Shown here one piece after another: positions 41,031 through 42,147 of a stretch of DNA of 64,000 nucleotides. Below the pieces are notes generated by a model. The model was not told the DNA's origin, made no database searches, and saw nothing but the letters and a program-made list of their open reading frames with translations. The stretch comes from Bifidobacterium pullorum DSM 20433 (GTDB taxonomy: Bacteria > Actinomycetota > Actinomycetes > Actinomycetales > Bifidobacteriaceae), in the NCBI RefSeq assembly GCF_000771405.1, contig NZ_JDUI01000001.1, positions 186,001-250,000 on the forward strand, in the 5' to 3' direction. Both the position numbers and the translations under genes were made by a program. The first letter of the stretch is position 1; each line of letters begins with the position of its first letter.

Positions 41031-41242
41031 CTGAATTCTCCGATTCGTTGGTTGTTCTTCATCTGTGGAGCCGCCACACTGCGCCCACACTTCCCCTGAA
41101 TCGGAAAGACAGCCCAGTCCACCGGCCCGATGGCCCCTTGCCCTCCTGCCGCCGCATTACTGCGCGCATTCCCACGGACTCGGGGATGTCCCGCTACCCG
41201 CGCCTGTCACATAAGGCACGCTAGCGGCACACACAAATATTC

Positions 41243-41336: not shown

Positions 41337-41377
41337 CGGATGGGCCCGGTGTCGTTACCTGGCACCGGGCCCATCCG
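41337..41377 (-). terminator. terminator of the candidate RNA
   Basis: A perfect 15-base-pair stem (41337-41351 with 41363-41377, CGGATGGGCCCGGTG and its complement) with an 11-base loop. No U-run follows, as at other terminators in this window. Confidence 0.7.
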
Positions 41378-41625
41378 CGAAAGGAGGTGATCGTCTTCAG
41401 TTATCTTCATCCGCGCCACCTTGCGCGGAACCAACATCCTCAGTCAGCCACTATCCATCATCCATACCCTCGGCGCAGGTCTGACGGCTCCCTCGCCGTA
41501 TGCCCATCTCAATCCTCGTGCAACCTGCGCAACTCTGTTACGTTATTGGAGGCGTTGCACGAATCGGAGGATTGGTGCTTCGTTACCGCCTGGCGGATTC
41601 CCACCCGACCATAACTCCGGCCTCC
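41337..41625 (-). ncRNA. candidate structured non-coding RNA upstream of rpsL
   Basis: About 289 bases with a near-consensus promoter directly before it and a terminator stem at its end. Inside, 8 plus 7 base pairs form a nested long helix: CGTGCAAC with GTTGCACG and CAATCCT with AGGATTG, separated by a 6-base bulge. GCGCAGG in its loop can pair with CCTGCGC downstream, making a pseudoknot around the hairpin ACGGC/GCCGT. The 5' end (GGAGG, AGTTAT) can pair with the 3' end (ATAACT, CCTCC). Just before the terminator lies GATCACCTCCTTTC, 14 bases identical to the 16S rRNA anti-Shine-Dalgarno tail. No protein frame fits. It does not match tmRNA, SRP RNA or RNase P RNA as I know them; a 6S- or Ms1-like RNA is possible. 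Confidence 0.6.
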
Positions 41626-41631
41626 ACTTAC

Positions 41632-41660
41632 AGTATACCGGCGCACCCCTGAAATGTCCA
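41632..41660 (-). promoter_or_regulatory. sigma-70-type promoter of the candidate RNA
   Basis: On the minus strand: -35 TGGACA (41655-41660), a 17-base spacer and -10 TATACT (41632-41637). This is among the best promoter matches in the window and points away from any protein gene, into the structured region. The start of transcription is expected near 41625. Confidence 0.65.
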
Positions 41661-41880: not shown

Positions 41881-42147
41881 TTACTTGCCCAGCACCTTGT
41901 TGACCAGGTCCTCCGGCAGGCCGACCTTCTCGGCCAGCCCCTTGAGATCGATGTCGTCGACCTTGTCGCCGACCATCTCCTTGAGCTGACCGAGCTTCTC
42001 GCCCAGCTCCTGCGGGGTCAGACCGGCATTCTCGGCCATGCCCTTGATGTCCTCGCCCACGGCGGCCAGATCATCGAGGCCGAGGCCGTTGTCCAGGTTG
42101 ACGCCGTGGTCCTTGGCGAAATCCTTGATGTTGTCAAGAATCGACAT
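41881..42147 (-). CDS. small, mainly helical conserved-type protein of unknown function
   Basis: 88 residues, acidic and Leu/Gly-rich (MSILDNIKDFAKDHGVN...). It is made of four or five short amphipathic helices broken by Gly and Asp; one part (GLTPQELGEKLGQLKEMVGDKVDDIDLKGLAEKVGLPEDLV) holds two similar helix-turn units. No signal peptide, membrane helix, Cys or catalytic motif. AAGGAG lies 7 bases before the ATG at 42147, and a strong hairpin follows, so it is a real, single-gene unit. I do not recognise the family. Location between the candidate RNA and tRNA-His gives no clue. Confidence 0.7.
   Translation of the reverse strand: MSILDNIKDFAKDHGVNLDNGLGLDDLAAVGEDIKGMAENAGLTPQELGEKLGQLKEMVGDKVDDIDLKGLAEKVGLPEDLVNKVLGK

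Follow-up and report, generated by a model that had tools for sequence, protein, structure and literature searches.

Upstream of rpsL in Bifidobacterium pullorum DSM 20433, the minus strand codes for a structured RNA of 294 nt to the close of its end hairpin (41631-41337), in a single full-length copy in the source genome. Coordinates refer to the window, that is, the whole 64,000-nt stretch of DNA that was analysed. This RNA almost certainly represents a real family, and one apparently undescribed. Our best explanation, put forward tentatively, is that of a small structured RNA specific to Bifidobacterium, independently transcribed and probably acting in trans, whose copy of the anti-Shine-Dalgarno sequence would block Shine-Dalgarno (SD) sites of mRNAs. 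The preliminary description of the locus, made from this one sequence, had proposed a structured RNA missing from the annotation and equipped with a promoter and a terminator. That proposal is strongly supported by the conservation of the RNA, the covariation of its 5' domain, the retention of a -10 box in the homologues, the changing gene neighbourhood and the lack of an Rfam match. The features are listed in the table.

Table. Features of the RNA locus in B. pullorum DSM 20433 (positions in the window).
Feature	Position	Strand	Basis
-35 hexamer TGGACA	41655..41660	-	promoter scan
-10 hexamer TATACT	41632..41637	-	promoter scan; a -10 box kept in 41/41 long homologues
5' domain, three-way junction (model R1)	41546..41628	-	covariation among homologues
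Core hairpin ACGGC-GAGGGA-GCCG	41485..41499	-	pattern recurrence in homologues
Hairpin TCCGCGC[AAGGTG]GCGCGGA, purine-rich loop	41410..41429	-	recurrence in long forms
ACCTCCTT, identical to the anti-Shine-Dalgarno tail of 16S rRNA	41381..41388	-	sequence match
Longer 16S match ATCACCTCCTTTC	41379-41391	-	sequence match
End hairpin of 15 perfect pairs with an 11-nt loop, probable terminator	41337..41377	-	sequence and homologues

Transcription unit and fold of the RNA

The promoter noticed earlier, TGGACA-17-TATACT at 41660-41632 on the minus strand, agrees with the consensus at 10 of 12 positions, with 0.4 such sites expected in shuffles. In all 41 long homologues, the 14 nt that precede the 5' domain hold a -10 box of the form TA(T/C)A(A/C)T (TATACT in 28, TATAAT in 8, TACAAT in 3 and TACACT in 2). 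The perfect GC-rich stem of 15 bp claimed for the other end is likewise present (41377-41363 with 41351-41337). No clear U tract was seen after it in the window (...CCGTGTGTG) and it was absent from the output of the terminator scan; a T-rich stretch follows the end hairpin in several relatives. The hairpin itself recurs with 13-20 pairs, G-T allowed, in 41/41 long forms and with 9-12 pairs in nine short forms. The segment 41631-41328 folds at -128.7 kcal/mol, below all 100 shuffles (z -3.74), a value that must be due in part to the end hairpin.

The 5' domain is modelled as a three-way junction made of P1 (41626-41620 with 41553-41547), a P2 hairpin and P3 (41578-41575 with 41560-41557). Covariation was measured on a sequence-only alignment of the 41 5' domains, 38 of them distinct, against 500 shuffles. 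Double-sided changes were seen in 13 of the 25 junction pairs (shuffled mean 8.0, reached by 1/500 shuffles), 95.0% of the junction cells were paired (shuffled 89.2, reached by 0/500; 31-42% when the partner was slid as a control) and the covariation score was 0.296 (shuffled 0.191, reached by 0/500), figures to be read with the caveats that related sequences can beat shuffles without any structure and that the fold was derived from 16 of the same sequences, so that part of the excess is expected. The pairs of the 5' domain contain 83 G-U cells against 19 C-A cells, and it is therefore on the minus strand that the structured RNA lies. Taken together, the compensatory changes support the predicted three-way junction.

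This fold is not the one first proposed. A long nested helix had been described, which we took as TTCGTGCAAC/GTTGCACGAG (10 pairs, one G-U) with CAATCCTC/GAGGATTG (8 pairs); it is present in the sequence, yet its inner arm is not conserved, the longest exact complement to the 9 nt of that arm being 9 nt long in the window and 3-7 nt long in the other 40 long homologues. The bases of this helix also belong to the covariation-backed junction. A pairing of the 5' and 3' ends had been suggested as well, whereas covariation links the 5' end to a stretch inside the RNA, in helix P1, and not to the 3' end. What is conserved among bifidobacteria is thus the RNA, with a fold that differs, and not the helix originally put forward. 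On the minus strand of the window, at 41510-41574, the helices TTCGTGCAAC/GTTGCACGAG and CAATCCTC/GAGGATTG compete with the conserved junction, the former being found in this genome alone among the 41; the competing helices could be a switch or the product of chance.

Two further hairpins recur between the junction and the end hairpin. The core hairpin, of pattern [ACG]CGGC-N4-9-GCCG, is found in 30/41 long and 9/9 short forms. The purine-loop hairpin, searched for with a stem of at least 4 pairs, has a loop RRNGYR in 33/41 long forms, and in 27 of these RRGGYG; a 34th match, in G038, was judged unrelated and excluded. Its stem bases vary across 26 distinct hairpins. As to coding potential, the 50 RNAs differ widely in their longest complete frame on the RNA strand (1 to 66 aa); among the eight longest frames, only those of close pairs, such as G101/G120, look alike. 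Upstream of the RNA, the minus strand (41881-42147) codes for a protein of 88 aa, P0001, with no Pfam match at E<=0.001.

Distribution, two forms and gene context

Plain DNA search gave matches in 7/99 genomes, the own genome included and mostly fragments, the closest relative being G041 with 72% identity; a covariance model was therefore built. This model, R1, made from sixteen 5'-domain sequences, replaced a strict motif pattern that had matched 16/112 genomes. At E<=0.01, R1 found matches in 42 of the 112 genomes of the genus, 41 of them strong (E 1.6e-27 to 7.1e-11); weak second matches in G011, G050, G055, G120 and G137 (E 0.001-0.01) were left out of the counts. The remaining genome, G009 (E 0.001), was dropped, as it had no -10 box and a weak downstream hairpin. 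Besides the own genome, R1 gave 2 weak matches in 149 genomes of the order, some of the genus included, and 1 in 296 genomes of the class. The weak matches (G009, G229, G210 and G302) were all rejected: none has a -10 box, and the best hairpin downstream of each scores 8.7-11.0, where the 41 long forms reach 17.2-26.5. No convincing homologue outside Bifidobacterium was thus found in the order sample (149) or the class sample (296).

A looser pattern scan of 84,980 species genomes pointed to the same genus, with 30 of its 38 loci in Bifidobacterium. All 30 match R1 with E below 1e-11; the other 8, which have no R1 match at E<=1, were discarded as chance. Among the named carriers are B. pullorum subsp. 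gallinarum, B. biavatii, B. callitrichos, B. catenulatum subsp. kashiwanohense, B. ruminantium, B. merycicum, B. boum, B. thermophilum, B. subtile and B. tsurumiense.

We then have a shorter form of the RNA. Among the 70 genus genomes without R1 match, rpsL was located in 69 and 60 upstream regions were compared, nine of which carry a -10 box, the core hairpin and the end hairpin without the 5' domain, with the motif CCTCCTT in 8/9. A second covariance model, R2, built from these nine sequences and applied to 71 genomes (the 70 and G009), gave 19 matches at E<=0.01. Of these, 11 are strong and extend over the full length (E<=1.1e-25), the nine source sequences counted among them, 6 take in the tail and end hairpin only, and 2 are of full span but weak. 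The long form is accordingly present in 41/112 Bifidobacterium genomes and the short form in 11 more, neither full-length form being found in 60/112; the search filters lose weak matches, so the numbers of carriers are lower bounds. To the end of the end hairpin, the long form measures 225-451 nt and the short form 167-184 nt.

R2 also finds the 3' part of 15/27 long-form sources at E<=0.1, the window not being among the 15; in every case the match is on the strand of the RNA and follows the 5' domain. Five of these matches have E<0.001 and the rest 0.004-0.09, and five cover the end-hairpin part only. This supports a common descent of the 3' modules of long and short forms, with a link that is weak for many long forms. 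In four other regions upstream of rpsL (L126, L130, L133 and L155), an end hairpin with the loop GUGACANGGUCUCC stands with little or none of the remaining RNA, suggesting that these regions may be remnants.

The gene that follows on the same strand is not constant. Of the named Bifidobacterium loci, 30 in all, 12 have rpsL there and 14 the threonine aldolase LtaE, while in 4 neither was seen. A tRNA-His was found at 17/30. This variation argues for a separate transcription unit that probably acts in trans. Had the RNA served the rpsL (str) operon in cis, as its leader or attenuator, as the same-strand position of rpsL in the window and in 12/30 named relatives might indicate, the threonine aldolase gene would not be expected downstream on the same strand in 14/30; in the window, moreover, rpsL has a conserved leader of its own, which follows the end hairpin and precedes the gene. 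A cis-acting role is hardly credible on these grounds, and it was rejected because the downstream neighbour varies.

The rpsL leader is a second conserved structured element, at 41184-41234 on the minus strand of the window, of the form GUGUGUGCC..CCUUAUGURACAGG..GGGAUAUCC. Double-sided changes occur in 6/15 of its predicted pairs among 46 distinct sequences, 45 of them from other loci, and Rfam gave nothing for it at E<=1 when the window was searched. It may be a leader of the ribosomal-protein type belonging to the str operon.

An anti-Shine-Dalgarno motif before the end hairpin

The tail of the RNA carries CCUCCUU, the core of the 16S rRNA anti-Shine-Dalgarno sequence, a feature absent from the preliminary description. 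CCTCCTT lies at most 45 nt before the end hairpin in 34/50 RNAs (26/41 long and 8/9 short forms), against a mean of 0.075 and a maximum of 2 over 2000 rounds of shuffled tails, a comparison that leaves the relatedness of the sequences unaccounted for. Beyond the seven letters used for selection, the best kept are A at -1 (25/34) and C at +8 (28/34). The remaining 16S letters are poorly kept: the GATC upstream, at positions -5 to -2, is matched in only 11-18/34. Only the letters that pair with SD sequences are therefore kept, as expected if pairing to SD sites matters, and a stronger claim of 16S mimicry was dropped for that reason.

The 3' end of 16S rRNA is read by factors such as Era, KsgA, a maturation nuclease or S1. 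The RNA might instead be a decoy of this end, which would bind a tail-reading factor and tune ribosome assembly or translation globally. The longer match ATCACCTCCTTTC occurs just twice in the draft genome, in this RNA and at the 3' end of 16S rRNA, as a decoy would have it; the poor keeping of the longer match in the homologues (GATC, the letters at -5 to -2) and the lack of the motif in 16/50 RNAs make this explanation improbable.

The same 16 RNAs without CCTCCTT, about 12 of which have no close substitute, also count against pairing to SD sites. Some tails are variant (TCTCCTT in G106, CTCCTTT in G038, CCTCCTC in G143 and CCTCCTCTT in L131) and could still pair with purine-rich SD sequences. 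No raised accessibility of the motif was found, the predicted mean unpaired value over the 34 RNAs being 0.41 against 0.44 upstream; in tails of the G001, G022/G121 and G129 types, however, a small hairpin is predicted whose loop holds all or part of the motif. The RNAs without CCTCCTT, the average accessibility and the 60/112 genomes without a full-length form stand against the SD-blocking model, whereas the variant tails and these loop positions speak for it.

Also against the model, CCTCCTT is over-represented in the window (12 against 3.55 expected), presumably as the antisense of SD sites. An SD-like 5-mer precedes only 9/80 mechanical ATG frames of at least 200 aa in the window, a crude count that tells little, as genes are a minority among frames of this kind. 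Besides the copy in its tail, the window RNA contains CCUCC twice, once in the loop of P3 and once in the 3' strand of P1. The former is seen in 1/41 long forms, and the latter changes with its partner (GCCUCC or GCCUUC); the RNA of G041 has two CCUCC copies.

Read on the opposite strand, the motif is AAGGAGG and could be the ribosome binding site of a small ORF. An ATG lies 4-11 nt after AAGGAGG in 10/34 RNAs against 2.1 in shuffles, and any start codon in 15/34 against 8.1, which speaks for such an ORF; 24/34 RNAs, the window included, have no such ATG, and among the 10 homologues that have it no peptide common across lineages was found, the peptides (11-57 aa) being alike only within close relatives. 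As the G-U and C-A counts and the conserved -10 box both point to the minus strand, we judged an opposite-strand binding site very unlikely after this test of SD-start spacing.

Comparison with known RNAs and proposed role

With Rfam 15, the whole window gave only the nearby tRNA-His. No clear match to a known family was found at the gathering thresholds, where the window and the loci of 20 relatives gave tRNA only. At permissive settings the segment 41200-41800 gave four matches, all far below gathering, and at E<=0.1 ten further loci gave tRNA and three matches far below gathering. No description of the RNA was found in the portions of the open-licence PMC literature consulted. In the part of PMC5746004 available, the B. 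breve list comprises RNase P, tmRNA, 4.5S RNA and three riboswitch-type elements and does not include this RNA; none of the 11 small RNAs of B. animalis given in the excerpt of PMC4338058 neighbours rpsL, and the excerpts of PMC2864571 and PMC10832533 do not mention it.

The preliminary guess of a 6S-like RNA such as Ms1 is not supported: there is no 6S match, no rod closed by pairing of the 5' and 3' ends, and the gene context appears to be different. 6S (RF00013) gave no match in the window or the segment, and none at E<=1 in a set of 29 genomes that includes 19 of the genus. 6S RNA is a rod closed by its two ends with a central bubble, while the 5' end of the window RNA pairs internally by covariation. 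Ms1, which binds the RNA polymerase core, is likewise actinobacterial and of similar length, but the window RNA has no end-closed rod. The gene context of Ms1 includes a HAD hydrolase; the neighbours sought and found here are rpsL, LtaE and tRNA-His. According to the excerpt of PMC9130861, the Bifidobacterium intergenic regions syntenic to Ms1 are too short for Ms1.

6C RNA carries C-rich single-stranded letters able to pair with G-rich mRNA starts. The window RNA is also actinobacterial with C-rich letters that could so pair, but is about four times as long as the 75-position model RF01066, which has no match in the window or in 19 genomes of the genus. The closest precedent in mechanism that we found is that of the rhizobial NfeR1/alpha-r14 small RNAs, which silence mRNAs at the ribosome binding site through anti-SD motifs (PMC10746234, in the part available). 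As described there, alpha-r14 carries an unpaired CCUCCUCCC in each of its three hairpins, whereas the window RNA has three CCUCC (P3 loop, P1 strand and tail), none of them within CCUCCUCCC, and differs further by its covarying three-way junction, its phylum and its lack of an Rfam match.

The RNA could also be an abundant RNA associated with RNA polymerase, a functional counterpart of 6S, Ms1 or CoRP without sequence relation to them. Parts of PMC11077062 report that neither 6S nor Ms1 was found in, for example, Bifidobacterium bifidum, where an unknown type of polymerase-bound RNA is expected, and the lack of a 6S match in 19 genus genomes agrees with this. The same excerpts describe CoRP of Corynebacterium as an RNA of about 500 nt that was shown to bind RNA polymerase (core and holoenzyme), restricted to its genus and near tRNA genes; the window RNA is similar by description in being genus-restricted, structured and near tRNA genes (tRNA-His at 17/30 named loci). 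A polymerase-associated RNA is unlikely given the lack of a rod closed by end pairing, the complete lack of the 5' domain in the short form and the 60/112 genus genomes with neither full-length form, and it gives the recurrent anti-SD motif no role.

In the SD-blocking model that we prefer, the (A)CCUCCUU motif would base-pair with the AAGGAGG Shine-Dalgarno sequences of mRNAs, and this pairing would block binding of the 30S subunit to the mRNA. The 5' domain and the purine-loop hairpin may give the RNA stability, serve as a protein-binding site or regulate the exposure of the motif. SD pairing does not account for the 5' domain, which is better conserved than any other part of the long form. 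A broader and more speculative proposal, which we consider doubtful, is that of a modular RNA that joins the 5' junction to a copy of the ribosome's anti-SD sequence, would modulate translation initiation (or RNA polymerase) globally and would evolve by gain or loss of whole modules.

Few small RNAs seem to have been described in Bifidobacterium, a major gut and probiotic genus. A covarying family without Rfam entry is a concrete candidate for the replacement of 6S/Ms1 in this genus, the question raised in the portion of PMC11077062 available, and it bears on whether anti-SD small RNAs, found in rhizobia, are at work in actinobacteria too.
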